Source of the DNA: Chrysophaeum taylorii
Lineage: Eukaryota; Sar; Pelagophyceae; Pelagomonadales; Pelagomonadaceae
Direction of reading: 5' to 3'
Assembly (NCBI GenBank): GCA_029834535.1
Contig: JAQMWT010000464.1
Location: 105,906 to 169,905, forward strand
DNA length: 64,000 nucleotides
Part shown: positions 14,439 through 63,931 of the stretch, in pieces
Layout: every line of letters begins with the position of its first letter
How positions within the stretch are numbered: the stretch's first letter is position 1
Notes under the pieces: generated by a model
Told to the model about the DNA's origin: nothing
Databases searched by the model: none
The model's input: the letters and a program-made list of their open reading frames with translations, nothing else
Made by a program: the position numbers and the translations under genes

Positions 14439-15837
14439 TTAATCGAAAGAGTTGTCGGTGGCCTTGTAGGTAAGGCAGCCAGGCATCACAAGAGAGCATC
14501 TGGACAAGAGTTTTTGTATGGCGGTGCCATAGGTGGCAGCGGAGCCAACTTGGGGAAGGGCTTGGACTATCCACAAGTAACCCATAAACGGCTCCAAATA
14601 TATGGACCTGTCCCGGTCGCGGGGGATGTCGGAAGCAGTGAACGTATACGTGCTTCCAAAGGCGTTGATGGAAGTCTGATATTTGGTGGTGGCGTTCTCT
14701 ATGGTGAGGTTGCCGTCGGAATGGTGGCCACCAGTTAAGAAGTAGGAGTTGTGTGATGTTGATGAGGTTGTAAGTAATAACCTGTGTGACGGTTGGTTAG
14801 TTTCGAAAACGGTTATGTAATAGGACACAGGAGTGGGTGAGTTAGTGTGTAAGCTGGCAAACAAGTTATAGAGGATTGTAAAAACCTTGACGTGTATAGG
14901 ATGCGTTGCATTGGGTAGCGGCTCCATAGAGGAGCGTTTAAAGCACAACTGATGATAAGTACACTCGGATTGAACAGAGTGAGTACGTTGCTCGTGAGCC
15001 TGTTGTGAGTGAAGGCGAAGCAGTAACATATTGAGGGATTCAAGGTCAGCCATAGTAAGCTGAGCAGAACCTGTGCGAGAGTAAGGTGCAAACGTTTTAG
15101 GAACGGGGATATATGGAGGATCGGGAACACCCGATCCAGTCTTTGGATACGTGTTTAGGTAGCCAAAGGCGCTTGGGCGCTTTGTAGATCATCCACGATC
15201 TTTAGGAGGGGTGTGGATGGGTGATGGGCCACGATAATAGTCCAGTAGAATATCTGCGTGCGATGCATATCCATCTTTCTCTAGATTGGTAGTCGCCACA
15301 GAGGTAGGTCGGGAACCTATCAACAACATCGACACAGTAATCAAGTGTAGTATGGATAAGGTTGGCCACTGTGATGTGGTCTTGATGACAGTACTTATGT
15401 GGAGGCGTCATCTCCGCCAGTAGTACCAAGGGCTGGAGTAGCTTGATGACAGACAACATGCTGTCGAAAAAAGAGTCGTCCAGCAGGCTGTGTAAGTCTT
15501 CTGTCTTATGCTGTTTAAGTAAATTCCTGTTTGTGCAGGGAGGTGTGATCTCAATTATATCACAATAGAATGTGCGCCTTTCCTCTGGTGAGATTAGGTG
15601 AAGATGGTTAATAAAGGCGGGGAGAGATTCAAATAATAATACAGTAGGAAAACGGTGGCGTAACATACGAACAAGCGTATCATCAGACTCAACAACAACT
15701 TTTACATTGATATTTAAGCCTAAGTCATTAGTGGCTTGAGACAGGAACGCCGGAGTTGACAAACCAGAACAAAGTAACATGACAGAGGGTTTGCGGAGAT
15801 TGGACTCTTGTGAGAGAAACACTGGGCGTGAAAGTAG
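14439..15837 (-). pseudogene. C5-cytosine DNA methyltransferase-like domain in the copia element
   Basis: Two frames (15837-15202, then about 15130-14439) together give the motif order of C5-MTases. First half: divergent motif I (VMLLCSGLSTPAF), an acidic residue after the second strand (VVVESD, motif II), motif IV DIIEITPPCTNR with the catalytic Cys codon at 15535-15537, a Glu in the motif VI position (LLAEMTP), and motif VIII YQSRERWICIARR. Second half: a TRD-like region, a motif IX-like stretch (RDRSIYLEPFMGYL) and motif X LPQVGSAATYGTAIQ. It follows the gag-protease frame after a single TGA in the same frame, so it was probably one polyprotein. Motif I lacks the usual G-x-G-G, so SAM binding may be lost or altered. 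Identified by eye only. Confidence 0.75.
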
Positions 15838-18078
15838 TCAAGTTAATGGCTGCATATTTTGCTGAACAAGCTTGTTCTGTTTCCGAAGATTGAGAACCAA
15901 AGGGCGAATCCACGGGCGATCTGGTAAAACTCTATGGAATAGGTAGTTGTAGTATGCCAGTAGATCCCTGTTTTCATGGTATCGCTTGAGGGGAAATGCG
16001 AGGGAACGAAGTTCGAGTTGCTTGTCGCGAGCGATGTTGTAAGTGAGACAAGGGAGAGCAGGTAAATTAGCTGCTACGTAGTGTATGGGTATACGTACAT
16101 CTTTGTCTATGCGGCTCGTGACAGCGCTGAGCTTTGGCTCAGCTCGATCATTGAACAGAGTAGTCAGGTTCGTCTGGTTCCACTCGAGCATGCTCAGGAT
16201 AGCGAGATGTCGGTCATGCACTGGCTGAAGACATAAAGCGAAGTCGATCTTAACATAGCCAACTTGTGGATGATCTGGTAGGGGAACAACAATGTTACGT
16301 GTTAACATCATGTGTGATGCACGTTGTTGTCCTGTAGCCGTCTGAATAACAATCGGCGCGTATTTGGAGTCCAGTGGAATTATATGATTGGGTATTGCAA
16401 AATCATAAGTGGACATCAATGAGATGGTAGCACAAGAGTCAAAATATAGAAAAGAGCAATGTGGGGGGACACTGTTTACCTTCATGTAGTTGGTGAGGAA
16501 GGCGTTTTCCGACTGTGGGCAAGTAGTGGAGAGGCTGGCTGTGAAAAAGTTCTCCAGCAATAACAGATTCGTTGGAATAATAATCGGTTGAACAGGTGGT
16601 GATGGTTCGTCAGCCTCATCAGCCATGCCGTGCTTTTCATCAAATGACGATAGCGAAGTATGATCGGCATCCCTTTTGGTTTCGGCTTGTGATGGTATGT
16701 TGAGGGCAGATTGGACCTGTGAAGATAGCGAGGACAATAATGCTGGTGGTAAAGCCGAGATGGCGGAAGCGGTAAAGAGGTTAGGCACGGTATTGGAAGG
16801 ATTACCCTGTGTGTTTGTAGTAGGAGGAGTTGCCTTTGGGGTGGGAGCAGTAACAACAGTATGGTGTTGTGGCTCCACGTAGTTTAACGACTTTTCGGTC
16901 GAGGATAGATGAACGTCTACATCATAAATGATGTCTTCTGCAAACATGAGCTGTTCGTTTAGACGAAGTAAACTACTGTTGTCCTCAGTAGATGTCGTTG
17001 ACAGAATGTCAGCTGATTGTAATAGAGTCTCAAATAACTTGTTGATATTCTGTTGTAGCTGAGCCGTGGTATCATTATCTGTCACATGCTTCGTAAGTTC
17101 ACTACACTGTTCTCGCAGGGTGTTTAAGGTGTGGTTTGTTCGATCTAATAATTTCATGTTAGACCGAGAGGACCTGTCAAAAGTGCGGGGGTAAATTGGA
17201 CGGTCATGGGACTGTCCAGCAGTTTTCTTGGTGACGTAAGAATCACCAGAACGATAATACGATAAATCGCTGCGAGAGAAAGGCTGGCGAGCATCATTAG
17301 AGTTACGCAAGCGTCTAGCATTAAACGTGGAAGATGTACCAGGTTCGGACGAAGTGATGAAGGCGAGTGTGTTAGCAGTTTGAGTCAGACTTTCGTCTGC
17401 TGAGTCCAGAGTGTTTGTAAGTAGTAACTTTGGCTTTGGTTGAGAAGATAAACCTTCGACATAAGTTTCCCAAGAAGCAGGGCGTTCTAAGCGTCTTTTG
17501 TTCGACCCATTTGATACTACATTGTATAGGTCTAATGCGTATTCTAAAATGTAGCTAGGGTTGGTAGGGTGACACAATCGTTCAGCTTCTGGCACAGGCC
17601 GAGATGAAGATCGGGTTTCATACATATAACACCAATCTACCCAACCACGATCGTAACGATTGTTGCTGGTATTATCGGCATAATGCCGATGTATCTCTTC
17701 ATAGATTTTTCTACAAAGAGTACCAAAGTCGAATTGAAGGTCAGTCTCTTCCTGGTTAAGTTGGTAAGAGATTTGCCTAAATGCTAGGACAGCTTCGATA
17801 AATACATGGACATACCAGTTAGGATTATAAACAACAGAGTTAAATTGCTGTTTCAAATAGGACACATCAGTAGTCGTAACAGACTCGTAGTGACTAAAGG
17901 CGATGAGCATAATGGCTCGAGCCTTGTTGGGTAAATAACTTTTGTTGTATACCTCATTGATGGCGGGCCAGGCCGCAAGTGCTGGTTTTCCAACACTTTC
18001 AAGATTGAAGTAAGTATGCAAGAATGTAGCATACGTCTTCTGATAAGTGTGCCAGTCAGCAGCAGTTAACGAAAACAT
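15838..18078 (-). CDS. copia gag C-terminal part and protease
   Basis: A 746-codon frame. The first 300 residues are gag: the helical region WHTYQKTYATFLHTYFNLES is also found in the eroded copy at 52.3-52.9 kb. Then come a variable Ser/Thr-rich stretch, junction motif 1, and a retropepsin-like segment with SFLYFDSCATISLMS, where the active-site triad would normally read D-[ST]-G-A but here reads D-S-C-A. No CCHC knuckle is seen. The ATG at 18078 need not be the true start, because the frame is continuous with the upstream gag ORF apart from one TAA. Confidence 0.75.
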   Translation of the reverse strand: MFSLTAADWHTYQKTYATFLHTYFNLESVGKPALAAWPAINEVYNKSYLPNKARAIMLIAFSHYESVTTTDVSYLKQQFNSVVYNPNWYVHVFIEAVLAFRQISYQLNQEETDLQFDFGTLCRKIYEEIHRHYADNTSNNRYDRGWVDWCYMYETRSSSRPVPEAERLCHPTNPSYILEYALDLYNVVSNGSNKRRLERPASWETYVEGLSSQPKPKLLLTNTLDSADESLTQTANTLAFITSSEPGTSSTFNARRLRNSNDARQPFSRSDLSYYRSGDSYVTKKTAGQSHDRPIYPRTFDRSSRSNMKLLDRTNHTLNTLREQCSELTKHVTDNDTTAQLQQNINKLFETLLQSADILSTTSTEDNSSLLRLNEQLMFAEDIIYDVDVHLSSTEKSLNYVEPQHHTVVTAPTPKATPPTTNTQGNPSNTVPNLFTASAISALPPALLSSLSSQVQSALNIPSQAETKRDADHTSLSSFDEKHGMADEADEPSPPVQPIIIPTNLLLLENFFTASLSTTCPQSENAFLTNYMKVNSVPPHCSFLYFDSCATISLMSTYDFAIPNHIIPLDSKYAPIVIQTATGQQRASHMMLTRNIVVPLPDHPQVGYVKIDFALCLQPVHDRHLAILSMLEWNQTNLTTLFNDRAEPKLSAVTSRIDKDVRIPIHYVAANLPALPCLTYNIARDKQLELRSLAFPLKRYHENRDLLAYYNYLFHRVLPDRPWIRPLVLNLRKQNKLVQQNMQPLT
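16879..16899 (-). other. junction motif 1: T-E-K-S-L-N-Y
   Basis: Located between gag and the protease active site, followed by V-E-P. First of five copies of this heptapeptide in the element. Confidence 0.55.
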
Positions 18079-18135
18079 GGTAACAGGGGCACGAACACGG
18101 GTGTCGAAAGCTAGTGCCTTCGGGTGCGCGCGATT

Positions 18136-27749: not shown

Positions 27750-28031
27750 AAGAGATCGATCTGTCGCGTTAAAAATGAAAAAAAAAAGAAATCCAATGCG
27801 GTCCGTCGAAGATTCCGTTAAATGCCTGTGCCCAAATTCCGAGAAAATGGACTTTTGAATCTGGAGTGATGTACTGTAGTGAAAAATCAGTATATTGAGA
27901 GGCAGAGAGGAAGGAAGCCAAAACGGGTTGTGTACGTGTTGCATTACTATTCTTTCTAGTACCCGAGTGGTGCTCCTAGCGCGCGCCATAGCGCCAGTAT
28001 CTAGAGGGAGACAGATCCCTGGAGACGAGGC

Positions 28032-29126
28032 ATGGGCTCGCGGCTGTTTTCGAGCGGGTGCGAGGGAAAGAGGCCCCCGGCGATCATCACCGACATGCCC
28101 CCCCCCAAGCGAACGCGGGTCGTGACGCCGAGCGCGGGTTTGGTGCCCTCCTCACCTCAGCATCGACATCGCCAGGCGGGGATGGTCGTGGACCCCTACT
28201 CGGCGGCGGCGGCGGCGATGGGCGGTGAGCTCGCGGGGGCGCTGACGCGGAGCTTGCCGCAGCTCGCGGGTCACGGGCGGGAGGCGCTGGCGACGACGAC
28301 GAGCTCTGCGATTTTGGGCCGGTCGTTCGATTCGCTGTCGTCGCGTCGCGCGCTCGCGGGCCCCCCGGCCCCGTCGTCGCTCGAGAGAAGCACGTCGCCG
28401 CCGCATGCTCCCGCGCGCGCGTGGCACCACGCGCCGCCCGAGGTCGCCGTCGCGGCCAAGACTGGTCGGTGGACGAAGAGGGAGGACGAGCAGCTGCGTC
28501 AGACGGTGTCGCGCTTCAACGAGAGCGACAAGGACTGGAAGGTGATCGCGAAGCTGGCCTTTAACGGGTCGCGATCGGACATCCAGTGCCTCGAGAGGTG
28601 GGAGAAAGTGCTCAAGCTCGGCCTCGTCAAAGGACCTTGGACTCCTGAAGAAGATGAAATCGTTCGACGAGCCGTCGAAGGTTCGACGGGAAAGAACGGG
28701 GGGAACTCGGACCTGGTCAACTGGGCGGACGTCGCCAAGCTCCTGCCGGGCCGCCTCACGAAGCAAGTCCGCGAGCGATGGCAGAACCACCTCAATCCCG
28801 CGCTCGTCAAGTCGCCCTGGACCGAAGAGGAAGATTACCTCCTCGTCTCTCTCCAGGCCGTCTTGGGCAACCGCTGGAACGAAATCGCGCGCGCCTTCCA
28901 GGGCCGTTCCGAGAACGCGATCAAGAATCGATGGAACTCCAAGCAGCGCCGCACGCTCCTGGACGGACCAAAACCCCACAAGCCGATCCTTCCCACCGCG
29001 AAAAACGTCTGTCGCAACGTCAACTTCCACAAGGCTCTCGTCAAGGCCTCGGGAAACGACCCGGAAATTAACGAGGCCGCCTCCATCCTGGTCAACAAGG
29101 TCTCTCGCTGCGTCGCCGTCCAATAA
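28032..29126 (+). CDS. three-repeat (R1R2R3) Myb transcription factor
   Basis: 364 residues. A low-complexity N-terminal 140 residues is followed by three Myb repeats: R1 from TGRWTKREDEQLRQTV, R2 from KGPWTPEEDEIVRRAV to VRERWQNHLNP, R3 from KSPWTEEEDYLLVSL to AIKNRWNSKQRR. The regularly spaced Trp residues are kept, and R2 carries an insertion of about 8 residues (STGKNGGN). In plants and protists 3R-Mybs commonly control G2/M cell-cycle genes; the target here is not shown by sequence. The tail after R3 is short (about 60 residues). Confidence 0.93.
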   Translation: MGSRLFSSGCEGKRPPAIITDMPPPKRTRVVTPSAGLVPSSPQHRHRQAGMVVDPYSAAAAAMGGELAGALTRSLPQLAGHGREALATTTSSAILGRSFDSLSSRRALAGPPAPSSLERSTSPPHAPARAWHHAPPEVAVAAKTGRWTKREDEQLRQTVSRFNESDKDWKVIAKLAFNGSRSDIQCLERWEKVLKLGLVKGPWTPEEDEIVRRAVEGSTGKNGGNSDLVNWADVAKLLPGRLTKQVRERWQNHLNPALVKSPWTEEEDYLLVSLQAVLGNRWNEIARAFQGRSENAIKNRWNSKQRRTLLDGPKPHKPILPTAKNVCRNVNFHKALVKASGNDPEINEAASILVNKVSRCVAVQ

Positions 29127-30017: not shown

Positions 30018-32564
30018 TCAGCAATAGAAGGGGCCGTGGATGGAGTTGCCCGTCCTGCGGCCAAAGTCGGCGCACCAGGTTGAGTCGAGGGACTCGTAGG
30101 GGACGATACAGTCGCCGCCCTTGAGGGCGTTTGAGAGCGCGAGGGCCAACCTCGCGACGTTGGAGGTGAACTTGGCGACGAGACCGTCGCAATGGGCGAG
30201 GGCGAAGAGATCGTCGAGGAGCGCGTTGGCGTCGCGCTTCGCGGAATCGTCGTCCAAGTGCTTGAGGACGTGATTGTAGTAGCCAGCGCCGTACATGGCG
30301 TGCCTGTCGAGAGTGGGGTTGGCGAGAAAAACGCGGTCGGGCGGGAGGCCAAAGTACGAGAGGGAACGCGCGGTGGCTTGGGAAGCGACGTCGCGGTCGT
30401 CGGTGGCGATAAAAATGGCGTCGAAGCCGAAAGTTTTAATCATCCTTTTCGCCGCGCTCGCGTAGGTGCCGAGGGCATCGCAGGTCCGGCCCTTGTGTTT
30501 CCTGAGTTCGTCCTTGCCGCCGGATATGCACGTATCTCCGCGGCGGACGTGGAGGCCGAGGACCCGTCTCCGCGGGCCCTCGTAGTCGGCGCCAGCGAAG
30601 AACGACCTGCGGAAGCCGCCGCGCATGCGTTCGACGATGCGCACTACGCGGTCGGCCGTTGCGGGGTCTGGCCGGAGGAGGTAGGCGACGAGCATCGATG
30701 TCTGCCAGAAGAGAGAGTCTTTCGGGCTCGACTCGAGGAAGACCGGCGACTTCTCTCGAGAAAAGGTTCGCGCCGACGGGAGAAGAGAAGGAGGCACCAT
30801 CGCGTCGGGGTCGCGGCATCTGTCCAAAGGAAGCAACCCCAAACACACCGTAAGCGTCGTCGAATTGCACCCTTTTCTCGAAAAAGTCGGGTCTAAGAAC
30901 AGACTATTGGCGTCGAGCGCGGACGAGAACGGCTTGAGGAGCGAAGACAACTCCGACCCAATGCCGACGTTGCCCTGCGCGCGATACCGCGCGACTTTGC
31001 GACTTGGAAAACAGCACCCGGCGCGGTGGAGGTCGACCTGGAAGCTGACTGCCTCCGGATCCACGCGGCACGCCCGCGGTCGACCGCTCGTCGATCGGTT
31101 TCGCGCCGGATCGACTTCCGTAAGGTTGAAGCCCAACGAGGCGTTCCACTCGACAAGAGAATCGTAGAAGGAGAGCCCCATCCAGGTTCGCGAGATGTCG
31201 AGGACCGCGGCCGCGGGGGTATCCTTGCGGCGCGCGACCTCGAAGAATGGCGCGAGACGGACGCGGCTCGCGTCGAACGGGTGGCTCAGGAACCGATTGC
31301 TCATCGCGCGCCATCGCGAGGCTGCCTCGCCGCCGCGGTGTTGGTGTTGGTGGTGGTGGTGGTGGTGGTGGTGGTGAGGGGCGTCGAGCCTCCTCTCTTC
31401 TTCGATGATGCTGGTTTTATCGTCGCCGCCCTTGGCGTGGACAGCATACCGATACAAATGAAACGGCGAAGTCTTGTGAGACGAAGACGGGCACGGGTGG
31501 GCGCGCTTCACGTCGACGCGGTACCGCGCCATCAAGTCCGGCGCCGGCTTTCCGGCGGAAGATCCTGCGAGCCGCTTCGCCGCACGTTCGGCCGTGTGGA
31601 CGTCCTGATCTGGGTGCTGCTGCCAGGCCTCGGGGCACATTGCGTACCAGCCCTCGCGGAGCCGAGGATCGGCCGCTCGCGCGGCCACGAAGGCTTCGAG
31701 GTCCGCCGGCGCGAGGCCCGGGGGCGGCGAAAACGCGGCCGCGACGGTGGCGCGCAGCTCGGGAGATCCACAACCCGGGTCGTCGGGGGCGCCGAGCGCG
31801 TCGTCGGCCTGCGGGTCGTCGTGAGCCAGAAACAAGCGATCCCAGACGCAAATGTCGTTGAGGCACCGCGTCTTCGCGGCCGCGCGCGTCGCAAAGTACC
31901 CCGCCAAAGACACGACAAACTCGACGCTCTGGTTGCGACGGAGATTGAAGGAGGCGAACCCCGTCTCCGGGAGCGCGCGGGCCTCCTCGTCAAACATGTC
32001 ACATTTTTGCGTCGACCGGTGCGTCGCAACGCCCGGCAGCGAAAACCGGTGAAGGGTCGCCACGTCTACGCTGGTGGCGAACTCGACAAACGCGTCGTCG
32101 AGGGCCCGATGAAGCTGCACGTCGGCGTCGGCCCACACGACCACCACAAACCCCCGACTCTCAAGGATCGCGTGCCGAAGCGCGGCAACCTTACGAAAAA
32201 TAAAATGAGCTTTGGCAGTGAGTTGGCGCGCGTGTCGGGGGTACGACGACCGCTCAGAATTAGCGTAGGCGCACGCGAAGGGGGTCCCGGGCTCCCGAGT
32301 TGCGAAATTCTTCAACCAGGGGTACACGACGTGGAGATCATAAGTCCAAAAACATTCGGCCTTCGGAAACACGAGCGGCGCCCGCCCTTCGCCAATCTCC
32401 AACGAATTTTCGTGATACGCGCGGACCGCCATGCCAAACCGAAGGGCCGACGGCACGACGAGGTTCGCCGTCCGCGCGCCATTCACGGTCGTCACGATCA
32501 CCACCTCCCCGCATCCGCCGCCGGCGGCGGCGACGGCCGTCCAAAAAAAGATGAGGGTTAGCAT
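30018..32564 (-). CDS. glycosyltransferase / alpha-1,6-fucosyltransferase (GT23) fusion
   Basis: 848 residues from the ATG at 32564; the frame runs further upstream only into Helitron sequence. MLTLIFFWTAVAAAGG is a signal peptide or anchor. The N-terminal half looks like a nucleotide-sugar transferase, with WADADVQLHRAL (DxD at about 146-148) and a FASFNLRRNQ block. A His-rich linker (HHHHHHHHHQHQH) follows. The C-terminal half matches FUT8/NodZ-type fucosyltransferases: GLHVRRGDTC (HxRRGD at 672-677), FDAIFIATDDRDV and VAKFTSNVARLALALS. It would act in the Golgi, adding fucose and a second sugar; acceptors unknown. Two catalytic domains in one chain is unusual. Confidence 0.8.
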   Translation of the reverse strand: MLTLIFFWTAVAAAGGGCGEVVIVTTVNGARTANLVVPSALRFGMAVRAYHENSLEIGEGRAPLVFPKAECFWTYDLHVVYPWLKNFATREPGTPFACAYANSERSSYPRHARQLTAKAHFIFRKVAALRHAILESRGFVVVVWADADVQLHRALDDAFVEFATSVDVATLHRFSLPGVATHRSTQKCDMFDEEARALPETGFASFNLRRNQSVEFVVSLAGYFATRAAAKTRCLNDICVWDRLFLAHDDPQADDALGAPDDPGCGSPELRATVAAAFSPPPGLAPADLEAFVAARAADPRLREGWYAMCPEAWQQHPDQDVHTAERAAKRLAGSSAGKPAPDLMARYRVDVKRAHPCPSSSHKTSPFHLYRYAVHAKGGDDKTSIIEEERRLDAPHHHHHHHHHQHQHRGGEAASRWRAMSNRFLSHPFDASRVRLAPFFEVARRKDTPAAAVLDISRTWMGLSFYDSLVEWNASLGFNLTEVDPARNRSTSGRPRACRVDPEAVSFQVDLHRAGCCFPSRKVARYRAQGNVGIGSELSSLLKPFSSALDANSLFLDPTFSRKGCNSTTLTVCLGLLPLDRCRDPDAMVPPSLLPSARTFSREKSPVFLESSPKDSLFWQTSMLVAYLLRPDPATADRVVRIVERMRGGFRRSFFAGADYEGPRRRVLGLHVRRGDTCISGGKDELRKHKGRTCDALGTYASAAKRMIKTFGFDAIFIATDDRDVASQATARSLSYFGLPPDRVFLANPTLDRHAMYGAGYYNHVLKHLDDDSAKRDANALLDDLFALAHCDGLVAKFTSNVARLALALSNALKGGDCIVPYESLDSTWCADFGRRTGNSIHGPFYC

Positions 32565-32604
32565 ACAAGATAGGGTCGATATTGGGTTATTATTATTATT
32601 ATTA

Positions 32605-33637
32605 CAAGTGCAGGCCAGTAAGTTCACCTAGTCCCAATCTCTAACCCCAGTAAGTTCACCTGGTCCCAGTAAGTTTCATATAAGTTCACCTGGTCAGTAA
32701 GTTCACCTAGCTCACACCAACTCCTTTGAGCTCGTCGCTCTCGCCTCCGCCAATCTCAGTTGCTTTGATCCGCACGCGCCGCCAACCTTTGAGTTTACTC
32801 TAAAACCCTTTACTCTAAAGACCCCAGTATGTTCACCTGGTCCCAGTTTCACCTGGTCACTCAGTTCACCTAGTCCCAATCTCAAACCCCAGTAAGTTCA
32901 CGTGGTCCCAGTAAGTTCACTTATAGTGCGCGTGTAGACGCCGGGAGGGGGCTTATCGGTATCGCGCAGCACGTGTGGGGTAGGGTGGAGTCGTCGACTC
33001 AGAAGAGGATATCCTCGGGGTTGCCGATCGACAGAGAGCCACGTAGAGCTGGACGTGGCAGAAGACGGGCTTCGCCAAGAGGACGCCGACCTCGCGGGGC
33101 GTCTGGCCCTGGCTCTTGTCGATCGTTTGGCGTCGGCGGGCCTTACGGGATACAGGTTGGAGGAGCCTCGGTGACAACGACACGATCAATCATGTATCTG
33201 GTACCGTCGCAGTGGCCGTGCGACGGGTCGAGGTTGCGAAGACTTTAAGCTCGCGATCAAAGTCAGCATGCCGTTGGTCGTCAGGGAGTCGAACTCGACT
33301 GTAAAGAGCGAGGCGTCGGCTTCCGACCCAACCTAGTCGGCCGAAAAGAACTCCGACGCCTCGTCTCCGGGAAAAAAAGGCCGCGGTCATGCGCGCGTTG
33401 TCAGCATCGACAACATCGTTTCGACGGGGCGTGAGAATGGCGCGCTGAAAGAGCCGCCGCGGGTCGTGGAAATAGTCTGCGAGGTCGCCGTAGACGGCTT
33501 GGAGGATCACTGTCTGGCTCTCGCGCCTACCTGATCCTTACTCTCGCGCCTACCTGATCCTTACCCTAAATCGAGGGACAAACAGACAAACAGACAAACA
33601 GACAGACAGACAAACATCTGTCGATTAGTAGTTAGGA
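32605..33637 (-). mobile_element. Helitron-like element, copy A (PIF1 helicase remnant)
   Basis: 1,033 bp, sense strand minus, beginning TCCTAACTACTAATCGACAG and ending GCCTGCACTTG with A before and T after, the A|T target expected of Helitrons. The 5' part has GTTT/GTCT repeats; the middle encodes the C-terminal part of a Helitron PIF1 helicase in broken frames (FQRAILTPRRNDVVDADN, and RRQTIDKSQGQTPREVGVLL); the 3' third is made of GTGAACTTACTGG-type repeats. No Rep/HUH nuclease is present, so it is non-autonomous. It sits between the start codons of the GT/FUT8 and SOUL genes. Confidence 0.8.
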
Positions 33638-44236: not shown

Positions 44237-45064
44237 TTAGTAGATGGGGGGGGCGGAGAACATGAGGTCCTCGACGACCTTTGGGAAGGGCGTGAAGAAG
44301 AGGGGGGTGAGCTCGACGACGGATTTGCCCGTGAAGAATTCTTCGAGGACGAAGACGAGGACGGCGACCATGGCCAGGCGGCCGTTTTTAATTTCGGCGG
44401 TCTCGATGAGGTATTTCCCTCGGGCGGTTTCGCCGAGGGAGGTGTAGAGGCCGAGGGGGTCGAAGCCGAGGTCGCCTGGCGTCCAGGAGCCCGAGAACAT
44501 CCAGGTTTTGTCGGCTTGCTTTTTCTGTGCCTTGACGACCTCGCCTCTGAGCTCGACGGCAGAAGCGAACGCGAGGACGGCCACCCAGTATATCGTGGAG
44601 ATGAGTCCGAGGCCGCCGTTGAGGATCGATGGGTCGCGACCGGCGTTCTGGTCGATGATGGACGGGAGGCCGAGGAAGTCGGCGATTCTTGAATCCCAGA
44701 GTTCGGCGAGCGGCCAGCCGGCGGCGCCGAGCATCGCGAGGCGACAGTGCTTGATCTCTGCCTCGCGGTAGGTGAAGAGCTCGACCCTCGAGTTGACGAG
44801 GCCACAGGGATCGAAGCCGCTGTCGGCGGGGAGCGTGCCGTCGAGGTACAAGGGCCGCGCCTGGAATGGAAGGGCTAAATTGTACCACTCAGAGCCCGTT
44901 CGCGGTCGATAGGTCGTCGTTGCCACCGACGGCTGGAATTCCTCGTCCTTTTTTTCTTCGGTCGACGCGCGGAGAAGGTGGTGCGAAGGGACACGCTGCG
45001 CCGGCTGCCGGAAGGCGCTGCTGCAGATCACCAACGACGAGAAGAAGAAGAAGAAGAAGAACAT
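44237..45064 (-). CDS. light-harvesting chlorophyll-binding protein (LHC/FCP family)
   Basis: 275 residues. The N-terminus MFFFFFFFSSLVICSSAF is a signal peptide ending at an S-A-F site, like the ASAF motif that directs proteins into red-derived complex plastids; a transit-like stretch follows. Helix 1 carries EAEIKHCRLAMLGAAGWP and helix 3 carries ETAEIKNGRLAMVAVL, the paired chlorophyll-ligand helices; helix 2 is around STIYWVAVLAFASAVEL. GTLPADSGFDPCGL and GDLGFDPLGL are the family's lead-ins. It is a thylakoid antenna protein of photosystem I or II; the subgroup is not resolved. Shares a 50-bp gap with the divergent SDR fusion gene. Confidence 0.92.
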   Translation of the reverse strand: MFFFFFFFSSLVICSSAFRQPAQRVPSHHLLRASTEEKKDEEFQPSVATTTYRPRTGSEWYNLALPFQARPLYLDGTLPADSGFDPCGLVNSRVELFTYREAEIKHCRLAMLGAAGWPLAELWDSRIADFLGLPSIIDQNAGRDPSILNGGLGLISTIYWVAVLAFASAVELRGEVVKAQKKQADKTWMFSGSWTPGDLGFDPLGLYTSLGETARGKYLIETAEIKNGRLAMVAVLVFVLEEFFTGKSVVELTPLFFTPFPKVVEDLMFSAPPIY

Positions 45065-45114
45065 GGTGGTGGTGATGTGGCGGTCGAACTGACGTCACTT
45101 CCGAAAGAAAACAT

Positions 45115-54539: not shown

Positions 54540-55702
54540 CATGGCAGGCACTCGCTTCGAGCAAGTCTCCCAAGTTCGACCTTCGAGGGCGTAGAGAATA
54601 TTCATTTTCTCCGACTACCCGACCTGTTACTTACCTTGGCCCCTCTTTCGTTTCCCCATTTCTTTTCCCACCACGTCTTTGCAAAAACACAAATAGGGCT
54701 CATCTACTGCCTACAGCTGCCTCGTTGTCGTAGAAACAGGGCGTGCACGTGAGGCAGCTTAATACCTGCCGTGCACGAGGCGTACCGGACTACCACGTGT
54801 CAGGCGGCGAATCTATTCGCTCCAACCTAGGTAGGATTGCGGCGAAACAAGTGTGGCGGCAACTCCTGACCGCTAAAGCTTACCCTCCCTCTCTAGAGGC
54901 TTGATACCCGTTCAACGGGACACCTTTCCCGATCTTTTTAGTGACATCTTCCCTCATACCTCACAAACCCACCCACATCCTTATGCTCCCCACACACACC
55001 CCCCTCTTAGCAGTCGACATTTAAAGACATCAGACCTCTCTTTTGTGAGAAGCATTCTTGCTGTATTCTTGTAGTTTCCTTGCTATCATATTCCATCTCT
55101 CCATCTTGTTGAGAGGCTTGGTGAGCGTGAGCAAGGTGTGTGGCGAGCTTATACGACCCCGCGTCCGTGTTTTCCTCGTTCAGTGAGGTCTAGGACGAGT
55201 CGGCGAGTACCCCCCTTGTCACCCGGGGGTCGGGGAGGTTTTTTTTTTTTTTTTCTGTGCCGCCATACGTGGTGGAGTACACGAGATCGTGCGACTACAT
55301 ACATCGGTCGCCGACGAGCGAGTGCTGCCGTACGTGTTGTATTACGTGGTCCGGATTTGTACGTGCGCCCTGATCAAGCACACGGAGTTCCATTGGACCG
55401 GTTTGCGTTGAGAATATACGCGAACGTTGTTTGTGTTCGTACGATCCGAGTGACGACGAACACGCGTGCGAGTTGGAAATCGCAGCGCATTCTCCCGGGA
55501 ATTGATTTTGGTATAGCTGAACGGTGGAAGCTGTTTAGCGAGTGGGATCGCTACCCACGGGCATTTTTGAATTGCCAGCGGATTGGAATTCCGTGAGTGC
55601 TGTTTTTACAGCGACAGATAGCGTTGTTGGAATCAACGTGAATTACTTCGAGTGATCGGATCCGGACGTGTTTCGAGATTCTTGATCAATATTTGATACG
55701 GT
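54540..55702. other. spacer and probable 5' end of the Ty3 element
   Basis: Contains an isolated copy of the 40-kb tandem repeat unit (54951-55030) and a poly-T run (55241-55254). The Ty3 element's 5' LTR should lie here, but its partner is outside the window so I cannot define it, and no clear tRNA primer site was found. Confidence 0.4.
54951..55030. repeat. dispersed copy of the 129-bp repeat unit
   Basis: CACAAACCCACCCACATCC and CTCTTAGCAGTCGACATTTA are shared almost exactly with 40094-40180. Confidence 0.75.
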
Positions 55703-56374
55703 ATGGAGATAAACGCAGACGTGCGTGAGGAAGAATCTCCTCCAGTTCTTCCCGCCGCCCCTGAGCTTGAGCTAGGCCGCGAGGAAGGTGAATTAAGAGA
55801 GGCCGAGGCAGTCGACGTTGCTGACGTGCCCCCTGATGTGCCTCGGGATGCTGCCATTTTCCCTCCGTTGAGTCCAACGACTCCGGATCGTGGCGAGCGT
55901 GTTACTATTGAGCGCGGATCTGCGGCTCGAAGTCGACTTCGTGCAGACCTCGAGCGGAGACGTCGCGAAAATGAACGATTAGCTGAGCTTTTTGCTCGTG
56001 AAAGAGCTGAAGCGAAAGAGAAAGCGGCTCGACGAGAAGTTGATATGCTCAATGATGCATTACAACAAGAGACTGAGACCTCGAAGACCCTACGCGAAGA
56101 GGTTGAACGATTTCGTCGTGAACGAGATGAATTGTTAGCCGAACGTACGCGTCGGGAGAGTAGCCGCGAACGACCCGTGAGTCGACCCGAACCGGAAACG
56201 CCCGTGAGACCGCCTGAACCGGAAAGGAACACTGAAACGGGGAATGAACCTCCGCCCCGAGTCGATACGGAGAATGAGGCTAGGGCGGACATTGAGAATG
56301 AAAGTACGAAAATTTTACGGGAATTATCGCGGGGAATATCGCTGTTGCCAACGCCTTCGAAAAGGGCAACTTGA
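55703..56374 (+). CDS. Ty3 element ORF1, coiled-coil gag N-terminal part
   Basis: 223 residues from MEINADVREEESPPV. The acidic Pro-rich start is followed by a long charged coiled coil (about residues 75-155; rich in Glu, Arg) and a Pro/Glu-rich segment. Ends four bases into the next gag frame. Oligomerisation in the particle is the likely role. Confidence 0.6.
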   Translation: MEINADVREEESPPVLPAAPELELGREEGELREAEAVDVADVPPDVPRDAAIFPPLSPTTPDRGERVTIERGSAARSRLRADLERRRRENERLAELFARERAEAKEKAARREVDMLNDALQQETETSKTLREEVERFRRERDELLAERTRRESSRERPVSRPEPETPVRPPEPERNTETGNEPPPRVDTENEARADIENESTKILRELSRGISLLPTPSKRAT

Positions 56375-57860
56375 GCCGATCCCATCGACCCACTTCCAGT
56401 TTGAAGCCTGATAACTTCAAACTCGTCATCGACGGGCGAGACCAACGGCAATTTAATTTGGATTCGGCGGCGATGATGCATACTTTAGCAGATGACCATT
56501 ACTCGGTCGCGAAATTACGCTACTTACTACATGTGCATCTACGGGACACCGTTGCACCAATTTTTGAGGAACACTTGCAGAAATACGAGGAGCTCTGCGA
56601 TGAGCTACCACACGGTCCGTCATTTTACTTGAAATTAGACACGGACGATGAAGAGCATGGAGTCTCGGTTCGTCGTATCCGTCGTCTTAACAAGACGTAT
56701 TGCGACAAGATTTGGATTATTTTAGATCGACTTGCCGACCTCCGCGCACGCGGCAGGAGCTGCTTGACAAGCTGCGGAAGGTCACCCAGGTTTCAGTTCC
56801 GAAGAAGTCTGGGGAGCGGCACGTCCAAACCTATTGTACCAGATTCCGATCTGGAGCCTTGGAGTTTTGTTCCGTGTCCAGCCGCACGATGGATGATGTC
56901 GATATCCTCGACCAGCTTATCAGTGGATTGACGTCCAAGGAGTTGAGGACCCGTGTGCGGACTATGAGGAGCGGACATCCCGATAGTTACGTGACTTTTA
57001 AGTCGATGGTAGCGCTTATTACACGGCTCGAGAACGACTTACGAAAGTTGATGGAGGAGGAGAAGAACCAAGGCCCACCTAATCCGAAATCGAATAAACC
57101 GCCGCGAGGGCGGGGAGGTCGAGCTATGGCCTCCGATCAACAAGCCAAGCAAGATGCGGATAAACCGTCTGGGAATGCGGATCCGCTGATTTTACGAGAT
57201 CCTTTTTTGTGGGGCAAGAGAACGTGCCCGCACTGTGGGTTCTTCTGGACCACCCATGATGAAGATGAACACGGAAATCGCGTAGTTTGCAACCGCGATC
57301 CGGATCGTTACTACTGTGCGATGTGGAAGCGAATTCGTAAGCAGAAGAAGCAGCCCATATCGCGGTCCGATTGGGCAAAGCGTGATGATGCATCTAATGC
57401 GAACGCCACGCACGGATCGGAGCCTTCTAATGAAATTCAAACGGCCCTCACCGATCTTGGAACCACAATGGCGACCATGGTGAGCGAGGTCAGAAGCATC
57501 AAGGATACTACGTCATTTTCTACACGACAGCGAGACGGACGATCACCTTCTAGACGATCGTCACGCCGACATCGTCGCGCCGACATCGAAGCCAGAGCCC
57601 TAATCGAAAAGCCCATACTGCTCAAGACAGCCCGAGTCCTTGCCGTCACCGGAGCTCTAGTCGCCATTCGCGCCGGCGCCGACGTCATCGACATCACGAT
57701 GACGAGTATGACGGAGGCAGATATCAGGATAGTTCGGGACATTCGAGCGCATCTTTCGCGTTCCAATCTTTATACGACGCGCCGCCAATGTCGGGGGTTG
57801 TCTTTTACCCGACGGCGCGCCCTGCCCGAGTCTCCGATGATGTTGCCGATGTCGCTGTGA
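56371..57860 (+). pseudogene. Ty3 element gag, frameshifted
   Basis: Two frames, 56371-56931 and 56700-57860, overlap with a shift near 56720. The first has a helical capsid-like segment (KLRYLLHVHLRDTVAPIFEE); the second has a retrotransposon-gag-like part (ILDQLISGLTSKELRTRVRT). Instead of a CCHC knuckle it carries CPHCGFFW ... VVCNRD ... RYYC, a four-Cys cluster. Confidence 0.7.
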
Positions 57861-58172
57861 CGAGCAGCCATCGTTTGCAACAGGAGCAACATACCACCAA
57901 CGCTCGGGTCGTTCGGTGGCCTTCTACATCGTATGTGGAAGCAATGTCAGATGCTACTTGGGATTCTCCGCACTATTGGGAAGACTCAGATTCGGAGACC
58001 GACGAACCCATGCCGCAGGTTCCAGTGTCCCCCATTTCTTCAATGTGCATGTCTTGCAGGGCAGTTTACGATGATGACGTTAGACCTTGTGAGTTGACGT
58101 CGAGGACGACGTCTTCTTTTCCTACGCCCCCCCCCCGAGACCGTTTTAGCCGAGGTTTTAGCCGATACAGTT
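57861..58172 (+). other. gag-protease linker of the Ty3 element
   Basis: Frame-2 sequence (57788-58297) with Ser/Pro-rich composition bridges gag and the protease frame. No domain recognised. Confidence 0.4.
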
Positions 58173-60623
58173 TTGGTCGCAGCAGAACAGACCACAGTGG
58201 CGCCGATGGAGGAGAAATTGACGGGAATGTCCGATTTGTTGGACGAGAAACGATCACCAGAAGAAATAAAGGAGGAGATATATGTACCTCCGATTGAGAA
58301 GTGTCATAATTTGTTGTCAGCGAAACTGGGGAATGAAGAAGCAGCCGAAGCGGCGAGCGCCAATATAGATTCAGCGGCGAGGTGTAGTACGCCAGATATA
58401 GCAGCGGTGACGATGCAGATTTCGGGCGATGCGAAACCGGAGATACGATGTCATCACACTGCACTGTCGCCGAGCGATGGGGAAAAGATCGAGCAAGACC
58501 ACATCACCATCGGTTGCCTGGACCCTGGTACCCTTACGTTTATAGTGGGTCATATTTATTGACGACGAGACGGGCCGAAGTTTGCAGCGACTTTAGGCGT
58601 GGATGGAATGGCTGATGTCTCTTATATTTGTCGTGGAATGGTTGAAAAACTGGAAAAGGATAGCATCTTCCTTGACCGGGGCGATCTTCCAGTCGAGCGC
58701 ACTTTGTATGGGTCAGGATTGAACAAAACGACTATCCACCAATGGGTTGCATTGCGGATTGCGCTTGCGGACGACGTTGCCGTTCCAGTTGTTGCTATTG
58801 TGGCCGATACTAATCATCTATTTTTGCTGGGAGCGCGCGATATTCGGGTGTTTGGAGCCATAGTGGATTACCCGCGGAATCGCATTGCGTTTCTACGCAC
58901 ACAGGTCGCTTACGGGCGCAAGAAGTTAAAGGTGCAGGATCGACGAGTAGATTCTCCGATTTTGACGTTCAGAACAACTTATGACGAGAGCAATCCCGTG
59001 GTAGTTCAGGTTTATGGACAACAGCACCATGCGATGCAACAAAGCCTGAGCACCGTTAAGAACCGAGTATACGCTCGCTTGTGCAAGATTGAAGACCTCC
59101 AGCGTCCACCGCCGAAACGAGCGGGAGCTTCGGCGACTTGGGGAGTTCCTCCAGTTACCCCTTCTCATAGTTCGAACAGCGATGCTTATGAAGTGAAAGC
59201 CTATGCTGCGCGCACGATGAAGGTCGAGCCTGGGCGCACCTACTGCGTGCCAGTCGCTCTTTCAGAGCCCGTGGAAACTGGGCAAGTTTTCGTTGCTACG
59301 TCTTCTGGGTACGAGCAACTCAGGGTAGTCGAAGGAATGTGTTCTTCTCCTGAGGATCATGATAAGTTCGCAGCTCGAGTGGCGATATCTTCTACCCAGG
59401 ATGTGCCGACCGTGATCACTCAAGGTGAAGTCCTTGCTTTGGGCGATATTGTTCGTTTTGATGACGAGCTGAATGCTGTGACGGTCGACGATTTAACGAA
59501 GGATGGTGAAGCCGAATCTAACAAGGCTAACCTATCATTCACTGTCTCGGTCGCAAGCCATCTTACTCAAGGCAATACGGCTCCTGAACTGATGCTTTCG
59601 AGCTCAGTGCAGAAGGCGTCTCCTTCTGCCGATAAGAAGAAGAGTTCTCGTCAAGAATCGCTCGGTAACGACGATTTCGACCGACGAACTGACGAGGAGG
59701 AAAAGAAATGCCGAGAAATTACAGAATACGAGATTCGCCGAAGGTTTGAAAAGGTCCACTGGGTGCCGGTCACGTATCGCAAGGTTGTGATGCTCTTCAG
59801 CGGCGCCGGAGGAAGTACTTTAGGACTGCAACGAGCGAACGAGTTTTGCGGGACATCGTTTCGAGTCGTCCTTGCTCTTGACTCGTCAACAGCTGCCAAC
59901 AAGGTTCATCAGAAGAATTTTCCGAAGATACCTGTGGTCCAGCACACGCTCTGTGGGCGATATGACTCAACCCTCCGGTTGATCAAGGCTTATTTGACTG
60001 AAGCGGAATGGTCATCGTCGATGTGTATAGCGTCTCCGCCCTGCGTTCATTCCGCACTCTGCAACTTGACATCCAGAGATGTTGGCAAGGGTGTTACGAC
60101 CACTAACTGGACGATGAAGTTGTGCAAGATGGCTGGCTTCATGATGTGGCTGATTGAACAGGAGGCGTCCATTATTTCGTATATAGCGCGCTTACACCCT
60201 TACGTGTACGTCGTCAATTTTCATGATATCACACCTACTCTGATGAGCTCTCGCGTGCGATTGTTGGTTTCCAGTCATCCACTGCACTTGCAAGAGGCTC
60301 CGAAGACATGTGTGAACATGCAACAAAAATTTGCTGCAGCTTTAGGTTAGGCTCATGAACGCCACCTTCTCCAGCTGAATAATCTTGGCTCGTCCCGAGA
60401 AGCAACAGATACGGCTTACACCGTTACGCGGGTTCCTCTTCGTTTGGGACCGCATCGCTCGGACACTCAGCCTTTGACTCTCAAGATGACGGTCGAGTTG
60501 CTCACGATGCCGGTGGATCATGATTGGGATCGCTTGTCTAAGACAGATTCGTTCAAACATTTAGCGCCTGCCGTCCCTCCAGCTACTCTCGCGATTTTAA
60601 AGTCGATCTGCACAACTCCGTGA
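58173..60623 (+). pseudogene. Ty3 protease fused to C5-cytosine methyltransferase
   Basis: One frame broken only by TGA (58560-58562) and TAG (60348-60350). Protease: LGVDGMADVSYI, where D-[ST]-G-A would be expected, and the C-terminal flap-distal block LFLLGARDIRVFGAIVDY. After about 250 linker residues comes the methyltransferase (59780-60620): motif I VVMLFSGAGGSTLGL, motif II LALDSSTAANKVHQKNFP, motif IV CIASPPCVHS (Cys codon 60041-60043), motif VIII SSRVRLLVSS, then beyond the TAG a motif IX-like LTLKMTVELLTMP and motif X HLAPAVPPATLAIL. Motif VI (normally E-N-V) is unclear and the VI-VIII spacing looks short, so a deletion is possible. It would methylate cytosine using SAM if intact. 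Confidence 0.8.
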
Positions 60624-61252
60624 CCAGAGGTTTCCGCCAAAGTGGTGAAGTCCTGCCGACCGCGCTGAGCCCGACAGATCGATCCTTTGAGCAGTATTTA
60701 CGAATCTCCGACACCACCTTTCGTCACGTAGAGATTCCGCTGTTAAATACGCGTACTCGTGTCGTTAAGTGGGTGTCAAAGGATGATCTCCAGGATCCCA
60801 CTAAATGGGAACCGCCAGAAGTTCCTATGCTTCTGCTTCCAACTGATGCGCCGAGGACGGCTCATGCTTTTTCTGCTGCCCCCCCCCCCGACAATCAAAA
60901 GTGGACGTTCCGCCGGATCCTGAACCTGAACAGGAGCCGAAAGTAAGGAGCGAGCCGAATGTGCGCGTCAAAGGTGAAAAGATCAATAAGAGCCACCCTG
61001 AGGTGAGGTTCAAATACGAAGAAAAGTTCGATGTGCCATGGAAGGATGCACCGCGCGATGCGGACGGTGTACCATTACCGCAGATTCCCGAGCACGTCAA
61101 GGACAATGATGCCATGAAAGTCGTAATTCCGACGAAGGAAGAAGTTGAGAAGGTTGTTCGAGATCTAGGAATTCCCGACAACCCGCATCTGGATGATGAT
61201 GCGAAGATGATGTTGAGCCATTGCGTGCAATACGCGTGGGCTTGATCCGATT

Positions 61253-62620
61253 ATGAGACCCGTGGACTCGCCACCGGTTTCTTTACGCTTTAAAGACGCA
61301 GACCCACGACCGATCAAGATGACGCCTTATAGGTTGACGCCAGCAAAGCTCGAGTGTCTCAGAAAGCAGATCACTGAGTGGTGTCGCGATGGAGTCATCC
61401 GACCGGCGAACTCTCCGTGGGGATTCCTGTACTGATGCTGCCTAAGAAGGGAGCCGAGGCCGGGACGTCGAATGCTTTTCGTGCTGCCGTTGACTTGCGT
61501 CAGCTCAATGATCAGCTGGTCAATGACAGTTGGCCGAATATTCGTCAAGATGATGCTTTGGCTTTTCTTGCCATGCGCCGTTGGCGGACGTGCATTGATA
61601 TTCGATGGGGTTATCATAACTTACGTTTGGACGCCGCTGCTCAGGACGCTGTTACGATGGTTAGTCCACTTGGAGCCCATAGTTTCTTGCGCTTGCCTCT
61701 AGGAGTAAAAACAGCAGGAGCTCTCTTTGTAAGCAGATGGCTAGCGATTTGTCCACATGGATGTATAAGGACTTGGTCGCGTTTGTCGACGATATTATGA
61801 TGGGATCGGATGAACTCCATCGACATTTACAAGTTTTGATTGAAGTGTTGTGCCATTTAGCACAGCGAGGATATAGTGGACGAACTTCGAAGTTCCACCT
61901 CCTCAAGGATGAAATCGAGTTTTTGGGACATATTTCGACTCCGGAAGGCTTGAAGCCGAATCCCAAGACGTTAGAAGCGTTGCAGCAGATGCCGATTCCC
62001 GGTACGTTGCCCAATACGTCCCCGAAGACCCAGATTCGATCTTTCATTGGTATGAGCAACTATTGCCGCCGATATGTGAAGAATTATTCGAAGATTGTGG
62101 AGCCGCTTAGGCGATTGTGTCTTGAAGGCGTTAAGTTTGAGTGGACGCCTGAGTGCCAAAAGGCATGGGACACGATCATCGAAGCTTTGGTGGATTCTCG
62201 TGGAGTTTATCATCCTGACTACGATCTTCCTTTCAGATCCGCTCGGATGCTTCCAAGGATGGTCTGGGCGCGTATCTTTTCAGCTCGTGGAAATCAAGGA
62301 CGAAACCGGCAAGGTGACACGAGAGGAACGAGTAATTGAGTATTGGAGCCGAGCTGTGCCGAAAGAGATGCGGAACTATGAGCCTCGCCGGCTAGAGCTC
62401 CTGGCAGTTATTCTTTCTCTTGAGCATTTCCGCTCTTATATTGAAGGTCACAAGACGATCCTTGAAACAGATCATCGCAACTTGACGTTTTTACGAAAGG
62501 CGAAGCACTCGTCTGGGCAGTTGGCTCGATGGGCGATGCGGCTCGCCAATTTTGATCCTGAATTGGGTTACAAGCCAGGGAAGTCGCCGGGAATGAGCAT
62601 CCCTGACTGTCTCTCTCGCA
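61253..62620 (+). pseudogene. Ty3-type reverse transcriptase and RNase H, frameshifted
   Basis: RT motifs run across three frames: MTPYRLTPAKLECLRKQI and GVIRPANSPWGF; AAVDLRQLND, CIDIRWGYHNLRLD and LRLPLGVKTAGALF; then the catalytic FVDDIMMGSDELH, and EFLGHISTPEGLKPNP with IRSFIGMSNYCRRYVKNYSK. RNase H follows with VIEYWSRAVPKEMRNYEPRR, ELLAVILSLEHFRSYIEG and TDHRNLTFL. Clear Ty3/gypsy order. Four frame changes in about 1.4 kb. Confidence 0.9.
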
Positions 62621-63931
62621 ATCCTATAGATCATGTCATCGAGACGGACGAGTTTGGTGAACCCTTGAACCACGCGTATCTAGTGTGCCAAGAACTCCCT
62701 CGTTCTGTTGATGATGAAGGAGTACCTTTACCTGGGTGCCATGTCATTCTGTCGTTTGTTACGACTGAGTTGCCTGTGGAGGAAGAGGAGGAAGACCTCG
62801 ATGATCCGATGCAATTGGTCACGTCTCATGCTACGAAACAACGTCAGAAGCAACGACTTCAGACCCAGCCTAGTATTTTCCGTGATGCCGATGATTACCA
62901 AGAGTACATCGACAAGATTCCGGATAATTTGACTTTGGAAGAGATAGCCAAAGAGCAGATCACTGATGCTACTTGCGAGGACATTCGTTATCGCATGGCT
63001 CAGGGCCATTCTCTTCGTCGGTACGGAGCCAATTATCGCTATCAAGTGGTGAAAGGAGTTCTCTACCGTGCCGCACCCGACTTGCACCCGATGATAGTCG
63101 CACCCCGAACTTTACGGACGCGCATCATCCGATTGTACCATGACACACCTCTCAATGGTGGTCATATGGGTCGTCAAAGTACAGTGCAGTCGATACTTGA
63201 GCGTTTTGGTGGCCTCATATGTCTAATGAGGTGGGTGCTTACATTGCTGGTTGCATAGTGTGCAAGAAAGCTCGTACGCCTGAACCAAAGAGAGCAGGTC
63301 TGCTTCAGCAACCGGTGTATGATGGTGATTGTGTCGTCCTTTGTATGGATTTGTTTGGACCTTGCCCAGTGCTGGTCCCGAGACATATCTCATTGTTTTT
63401 GATCCATTTTCTCATTTCTTGATTCTTGACGTACTACACCATAAGACTGCTGAGTCAATCCTCGAGTCTTTTGTCGCGAATATATTACTCAAAGGTTATC
63501 TACCTCAGAGGATTCGTACCGACAATGGGAAAGAGTTCGTCAACAAGTTGATGGAAGAGTTTTGTCATCTTTTCAATGTTCGGTATAGTACCACGATTCC
63601 GTATCATGCTCAGGCTAATCCTGCGGAAAGGGTCAACCGCTTTATCAAGGCTTTCCTCCGTGCGTGCCTTCAAAACCGCAAGATCACGGAATGGCCCGAA
63701 TTCGCGGAGTACATTGCTTTTTGTTATAATCGTAAATTTATTCCGGGGACTCAGATCTCACCTTTCATGCTTCGTCTTAACCGGCAGCCTTTATTGCCAA
63801 CCGATTACACGATCATGGATCTTGATGTCCGCCGCCTGCCGAAAACTCGCTCCGATGTTGTGGCAGAGACTCGCGAGAGGCTGAAGTTCTATACCGCTAC
63901 GGTGAACGAAGCTCGTGAGAAGGCTTCGTAA
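62621..63931 (+). pseudogene. Ty3-type integrase, frameshifted
   Basis: After an acidic linker, the HHCC zinc module is split over two frames (YHDTPLNGGHMG, then GCIVCKKART). The core has RTDNGKEFVNKLMEEF (second Asp) and YHAQANPAERVNRFIKAFL (catalytic Glu). The first Asp is in LCMDLFGPCP. The frame ends at 63931 near the window edge. Confidence 0.88.

Follow-up and report, generated by a model that had tools for sequence, protein, structure and literature searches.

A divergent C5-methyltransferase-like domain in the polyprotein of a multicopy Ty3/gypsy retrotransposon of Chrysophaeum taylorii

Organization of the Locus

The window, meaning the whole stretch of 64,000 nucleotides that was analysed (C464:105906-169905, from an assembly of 70.8 Mb in 697 contigs), stops where its contig stops, and the Ty3/gypsy element that occupies this end therefore lacks its 3′ end. 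Table 1 lists the features of the element. In its 5′ LTR, 98 bases are 97% identical to copy C235; the 3′ boundary of this LTR was set by reading, and the 3′ LTR falls outside the window. Pfam gave nothing over cut-off in the two frames of the gag-like region that were scanned. A protease-like stretch, VDGMADVSYI ... LFLLGARDIRVFGAIVDY, which was recognized by reading and has no Pfam match, opens the frame 58563-60350 (595 codons), and motifs I-VIII of a C5-cytosine methyltransferase close it. The sequence-only reading placed the methyltransferase after the protease and fused to it in frame; this is confirmed as a shared open frame, the protease itself being identified by reading.

Beyond the methyltransferase-like domain, which is placed between protease and reverse transcriptase, the window copy carries reverse transcriptase, RNase H and integrase in Ty3/gypsy order, spread over several frames. 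In natural copies the same parts are easier to recognize: one segment matches RVT_1 at 4e-12, and a frame piece shows RVT_1 at 460-624, RNase H at 719-831, H2C2 at 1015-1073 and rve at 1091-1184. By this Pol order (RT, RNase H, integrase) the element is a Ty3/gypsy LTR retrotransposon. In five other copies the C run between methyltransferase and reverse transcriptase has a length of 5, 7, 7, 8, and 8 nucleotides, meaning that the reading frame differs between copies; a further C run starts at about 58127. C runs of changing length may reflect slippery replication or a frameshift site, or else an assembly error. With its TAG and several frame changes, the window copy looks dead or dying.

Elsewhere in the window lie a host gene for a three-repeat Myb protein (28005-29123, plus strand) and another with a weak FUT8-like fucosyltransferase match (30021-32627, minus strand; 1.6e-4, below cut-off). 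A light-harvesting (chlorophyll-binding) protein is encoded at 44240-45094 on the minus strand, and the genome holds 84 matches to PF00504, a number that suggests an algal host.

Table 1. Features of the Ty3/gypsy element and of the copia methyltransferases (window positions unless a contig is named).
Feature	Position	Strand	Basis or remark
5′ LTR, opening with TGTGGCGG	54852..55266	+	start as in the LTRs of copies C477 and C679; end approximate
gag-like region, several overlapping frames	55697..58562	+	open frames; gag by position
Cys/His cluster CPHCG...H...C...C	about 57225-57319	+	within the gag-like region
retropepsin-like protease	58563..58950	+	limits approximate; reading of VDGMADVSYI, LFLLG.RDIRVFGAIVDY
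C5-cytosine-methyltransferase-like domain, TAG-interrupted in the window copy	59780..60623	+	PF00145, profile comparison, constraint
motif I, KVVMLFSGAGGSTLGLQ	59781..59831	+	
motif II, RVVLALDSSTAAN, includes ALD	59862..59900	+	
motif IV, SPPC	60033..60044	+	proposed nucleophile Cys at 60042-60044
motif VI-like, WLIEQEA	60147..60167	+	by reading; E of ENV retained, N replaced by Q
motif VIII-like, SSRVRLL	60246..60266	+	by reading; R-V-R at 60252-60260
TAG of the window copy	60348..60350	+	
motif IX/X-like, PLTLKM.VELLTMP ... KHLA.AVPPATLAIL	60465..60599	+	by reading; profile support weak
C run, 11 nt, between methyltransferase and RT	60879..60889	+	
reverse transcriptase, two frames	61378..62336	+	FVDD by reading; RVT_1 0.01 and 1e-6, both below cut-off
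RNase H	62300..62560	+	PF17917 4.5e-21
integrase, zinc-binding part and core	63100..63928	+	PF17921 2.8e-5 (just below cut-off), PF00665 2.2e-9
copia methyltransferase-like frame: CSGLS, TPPC, AEM, QSRER; motif I VMLLCSGLSTPAF	15205-15837	minus	by reading
second copia methyltransferase type, L003-L008 and L136	contigs C4, C120, C64, C326, C683, C564, C96		

The Methyltransferase-Like Domain

The motif strings named from the sequence alone (FSGAGGSTLG, ALD, SPPC, R-V-R, the TAG and then a IX/X-like stretch) lie in one frame and at the positions assigned to them. Downstream of the TAG, 90 codons extend to 60623 and include PLTLKMTVELLTMP (IX-like) and APAVPPATLAIL (X-like). The conservation of these motifs was followed in 70 copies, from which L040 and L043 had been dropped as duplicates of L076 and L010 and in which motif I is present throughout by construction, the rows having been gathered by the motif I pattern. 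Motif IV proved to be as conserved as the sequence-only reading expected of related elements, with SPPC in 68 copies and its cysteine in 69. The motif VI-like stretch reads IEQE in 66/70, so that the glutamate of ENV is retained, asparagine is replaced by glutamine, and the ENV typical of C5-cytosine methyltransferases is not found. R-V-R is kept in 68/70, the QRR of motif VIII appearing as SRVR or CRVR. In the motif X-like stretch, where conservation was expected likewise, PP stands in 57 copies and PS or TP in 2; the remaining 11 are out of register. The window TAG is peculiar to few copies, because 62/70 read tyrosine at this position and only two a stop (L009, the window copy, and L091), the remaining six being out of register.

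Profile comparisons relate the domain to C5 methyltransferases. Against the PF00145 cut-off of 22 bits, three segments of natural copies without the stop (two from C477, one from C235) score 24.9, 28.1, and 26.9 bits, which together with the Pol order bears out the proposal of a methyltransferase-like domain inside a Ty3/gypsy element; the window frame itself, for which the profile search had been suggested, stays below the cut-off at 20.1 bits (E 4.9e-4). A segment of a third copy, truncated inside the domain at the end of the fetched stretch, reaches 17.4 bits. Two DNA-methyltransferase families of PHROG match at 2.3e-8 to 8.5e-7, and the NCBIfam dcm model at 7e-4 to 1.2e-3, far under its cut-off. 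The family matches span some 50-70 residues that enclose motifs I-III (in the PF00145 profile, positions 2-52 of 324).

In local mode, hhalign against 15 reference enzymes (E. coli Dcm and 14 phage enzymes) gives a score of 43.2 (E 2.2e-5, columns 28-74); with the host Dnmt2-like L001 as sixteenth reference the score rises to 50.5 (E 1.6e-6) and the match to columns 28-117, which take in motif IV. Column shuffles scored as high in 0 of 200 cases in either comparison, and these E-values apply to a single comparison. The reference set was formed without phage locus L132, whose gene is annotated in two parts, and without viral loci L094-L120. In global mode without L001 the score is only 16.6 (E 0.0032). 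Statistical support therefore covers motifs I-III and reaches motif IV only with L001 among the references.

Taken alone, the segment past motif III is not significant (55/200 column shuffles score equally high), and neither is motif IX-X (41/200). The best alignment of the former lands on the IX-X register, as do those of 15/150 shuffles, which is weak support. A single-sequence fold of the 216 residues preceding the TAG has a pLDDT of 35.7, too low to be of use. Motifs VIII-X are assigned tentatively, from reading and constraint; their profile comparison was not significant.

Copy Number and Recent Activity

A search of the genome with the domain returned 883 candidates, of which all 150 that were scored match at E < 1e-120. 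Apart from the window itself, these copies are 81-98% identical, and by manual count 131 of the 150 rows contain no internal stop. The longest frame around the domain, found in one copy, has 3067 codons, and in the second half of this frame Pfam recognizes reverse transcriptase, RNase H and integrase. The codon pattern for SPPCVHSA matches 302 times in the genome, its reversed control 0 times; some of these matches may come from allelic contigs. An identical peptide occurs at near-equal positions of a 209- and a 210-kb contig (C10:46924 and C297:46945); these two are probably allelic, and the copy counts therefore include some duplicates.

The copies form two subfamilies, A and B, whose proteins share about 82% identity. 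LTRs were examined in three copies that have both of them; in each they form a direct pair with TG...CA ends, 100, 99.7, and 99.4% identical. Target duplications of 5 bp flank two of them; none was seen around the copy with identical LTRs. Direct TG...CA repeats and a short target duplication are what Ty3/gypsy elements show, and the near-identity of the LTR pairs means that the family moved recently.

Selection on the Domain

Among the 84 loci examined, 72 contain the motif I pattern, the other 12 being five methyltransferase copies and seven stretches that do not include motif I. The domain is open for 320 codons in 56/72 loci (55/70 without the two duplicates). Between subfamilies its median dN/dS is 0.056 (769 pairs, one duplicate row, L043, included), with dS near saturation. 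Uncorrected pN/pS between subfamilies, calculated from 16-27 vs 4-5 copies with those stopped in a region excluded for that region, is 0.125 for motifs I-III, 0.10 for motifs IV-VIII and 0.11 for the TRD; it rises to 0.245 for IX-X and 0.35 after X. The corresponding values are 0.26 for the protease, 0.38 for the linker between protease and methyltransferase, 0.14 before the reverse transcriptase and 0.053 for the reverse transcriptase itself. Among these nine regions only the last is more constrained than motifs I-VIII and the TRD, so that the methyltransferase is conserved almost like reverse transcriptase. As the domain is kept nearly as intact as this enzyme, marking of the element's own nucleic acid during copying is probable.

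Methylation Footprint

In pairs of copies at least 97% identical, C/T differences per site are 0.033 (CpG), 0.031 (CC), 0.028 (CT), and 0.016 (CA) in subfamily A, and 0.018, 0.016, 0.057, and 0.029 in subfamily B; in 93-97% pairs they are of the same order, 0.069, 0.060, 0.062, and 0.032 (A) and 0.045, 0.033, 0.098, and 0.052 (B). These values come from a coding stretch and from copy pairs that are not mutually independent. CpG thus exceeds the other contexts by little at most in A and falls below CT and CA in B, and no clear CpG-deamination footprint was found in the Ty3 copies of either subfamily. The ratio of observed to expected CpG in the domain is 1.08 (A) and 1.27 (B), compared with 1.30 in the window at 20-48 kb and 0.88 in the copia element of the window. 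These results speak against long-standing CG methylation of integrated Ty3 copies. What is left is marking of cDNA, methylation of RNA, or another sequence context.

Copia Enzymes, Host Enzymes and Origin

The copia element of the window (RVT_2 2.3e-40) contains a methyltransferase-like frame of its own, even more divergent than the Ty3 one, which follows a frame (15841-18135) ending in a protease-like stretch. As a single sequence it gives an hhalign match to the C5 set that is out of register (E 0.0014-0.0023), and for this reason its identification rests on reading. A second copia type, with TLPC, ENV and the motif I IIAGGLHQEGF, is represented by the seven that were read of the 57 PF00145 matches listed for the genome. 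The alignment of L003-L008, in which L008 is a 7-residue scrap, matches the profile of C5 enzymes with E 7.2e-11 to 8.5e-11 in local mode and 3.6e-12 in global mode; L136 shows, by reading, the order protease-methyltransferase-integrase.

The Ty3 domain has no significant hhalign similarity to the second copia type (E 0.09) or to the window copia enzyme (E 0.023, with an alignment colinear over motifs I-IV). It is accordingly a second, different enzyme, as the sequence-only reading had it, and its motif I is indeed better kept than either VMLLCSGLSTPAF or IIAGGLHQEGF. The further step taken there, a separate acquisition, is not established by the tree: the stem that carries the Ty3 rows has a length of 5.8 changes per column, and a single clade of all six retroelement rows, Ty3 and copia, is not rejected (p-AU 0.343). 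Separate acquisition is possible. For a grouping of the Ty3 rows with the host Dnmt2-like protein the test gives neither support nor rejection (p-AU 0.214). The tree, made along the lines of the suggested phylogeny, has 23 rows and no Dnmt3 reference; no host, bacterial or viral donor could be named. Searches for a donor gave no relative among 5.8 billion proteins (scoring limited to candidates sharing 5-residue words), none confirmed among 21 pattern stretches in viral contigs or 70 in bacterial and archaeal genomes, and none in phage records.

At least two methyltransferase genes of the host lie outside the Ty3 and copia elements. One (L001:1498-2580) encodes in a single frame an enzyme of 360 aa, the best genome match listed for PF00145 (67.1 bits) and presumably Dnmt2-like; it adjoins a light-harvesting-type match (C634:8335-8637). 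The other, L002 (C621:16962-17498), lies in a frame of 2086 codons with a PF00145 score of 61.2 bits, TSCVDYSSLN and a Cys-rich finger, and is taken here to be Dnmt5-like.

Possible Roles of the Domain

A strongly conserved, multicopy domain in this position is best explained, with a probability of about 0.6, as a divergent C5-methyltransferase-like part of the polyprotein of a recently active Ty3/gypsy element that methylates the element's cDNA before integration. In this scheme the protease would free the domain from the polyprotein, and the freed domain would be packaged in the particle with reverse transcriptase and integrase. There the cysteine of SPPC would methylate cytosines of the newly made cDNA, which would then escape treatment as foreign DNA or arrive already marked.

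The strongest alternative, although an unlikely one, is that the enzyme methylates RNA, either the genomic RNA of the element or its primer tRNA. Dnmt2 is an enzyme that methylates RNA, and among PDB sequences the window piece finds, with weak scores (E 0.022-0.046), three enzymes of Dnmt2 type, two of which are also found by the domain profile (0.086-0.093), with two unrelated GGA1 entries ranking behind them in the profile search. An RNA substrate would agree with the lack of a clear CpG footprint and has likewise been proposed for SymbioLINE-Dnmt (PMC5890265). However, the Dnmt2 match falls mainly on motifs I-III and could be given by any compact C5 enzyme, and the undecided position relative to the host Dnmt2-like protein adds nothing in its favour.

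Less probable again is a loss of catalysis that has left the domain as a nucleic-acid- or AdoMet-binding structural part. The altered motifs VI and VIII and the weaker constraint on IX-X (pN/pS 0.245) would fit such a part; the motif IV cysteine, retained in all but one of the 70 copies, and the far stronger constraint on motifs I-VIII than on the linkers argue against it. Much the same low weight is given to a wider scenario, in which Ty3 and copia elements would each have taken up deeply different orphan C5 methyltransferases and fixed them right after the protease, from where the enzyme would be released and packaged together with the replication complex. The elements would thereby act as a main source of de novo cytosine methylation, the host's own DNA enzyme being presumably of maintenance type (Dnmt5-like).

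Self-silencing, by which the domain would curb the spread of its own element and spare the host, has been proposed for DNMT retrotransposons (PMC5890265), but it is improbable for a family with hundreds of matches, some young copies and no clear methylation footprint. Chance motif resemblance within a retroelement linker, for which the sub-threshold PF00145 score of the window copy and the statistically unsupported motifs after IV might be cited, was rejected in view of the natural copies over the cut-off, the profile score reached by 0/200 shuffles, the 302 pattern matches and a constraint that, among the nine regions compared, is exceeded only by that on reverse transcriptase.

Comparison with Known Systems

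Retrotransposons are the usual targets of cytosine methylation, and a few carry the enzyme themselves. A search of open-access literature found no title or abstract on this Ty3 element, and a description elsewhere is possible. DNMT-bearing retrotransposons as such have been described, of the DIRS and LINE orders in Symbiodinium and of Gypsy type in Klebsormidium; the SymbioDIRS-Dnmt3 enzymes methylate CG in yeast, whereas the Gypsy enzyme gave no methylation there, a result called inconclusive (PMC5890265). A survey of 2025 describes orphan DNMTs in elements and retrotransposon DNMT3s in Copia and DIRS (PMC12344493).

One of the closest counterparts is KnitGypsy-Dnmt3 of Klebsormidium nitens, which also has an intronless C5 methyltransferase within a Gypsy-type Pol ORF, several copies, and a domain under purifying selection (PMC5890265). 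Its enzyme is near Dnmt3 and its repeats are DIRS-like (PMC5890265), whereas the Ty3 enzyme described here could not be placed, in a tree without a Dnmt3 reference, and its element has a simple pair of TG...CA LTRs in each of the three copies examined; the present host also differs in its many light-harvesting genes. SymbioDIRS-Dnmt3 and SymbioLINE-Dnmt share the abundance of hundreds of retrotransposon-borne C5 methyltransferases per genome, and the SymbioLINE enzymes form an orphan lineage, as does the Ty3 enzyme, but their carriers belong to the DIRS and LINE orders (PMC5890265). DIRS elements with Dam-like adenine methyltransferases (PMC5890265) and Sola1 of Ectocarpus with an N4-C or N6-A methyltransferase (PMC12477816) also carry a DNA methyltransferase, but one of a different class. 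The copia elements of the same genome also carry, by reading, a methyltransferase directly after the protease; in contrast to the Ty3 element, they have the integrase after it, and the enzymes lack significant similarity.

The element therefore belongs to a known kind, the DNMT-bearing retrotransposons, and differs from its described members in its ordinary LTRs, its very divergent enzyme, its host with many light-harvesting genes, and the company of two more methyltransferase types, which copia elements of this genome carry. The kind is thereby extended by a Ty3 family that has young insertions and about three hundred pattern matches and whose methyltransferase is conserved almost like reverse transcriptase, side by side with the copia enzymes. 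The benefit that a retrotransposon may draw from methylating nucleic acid becomes testable within one host, where families that carry the enzyme can be compared with families that lack it.
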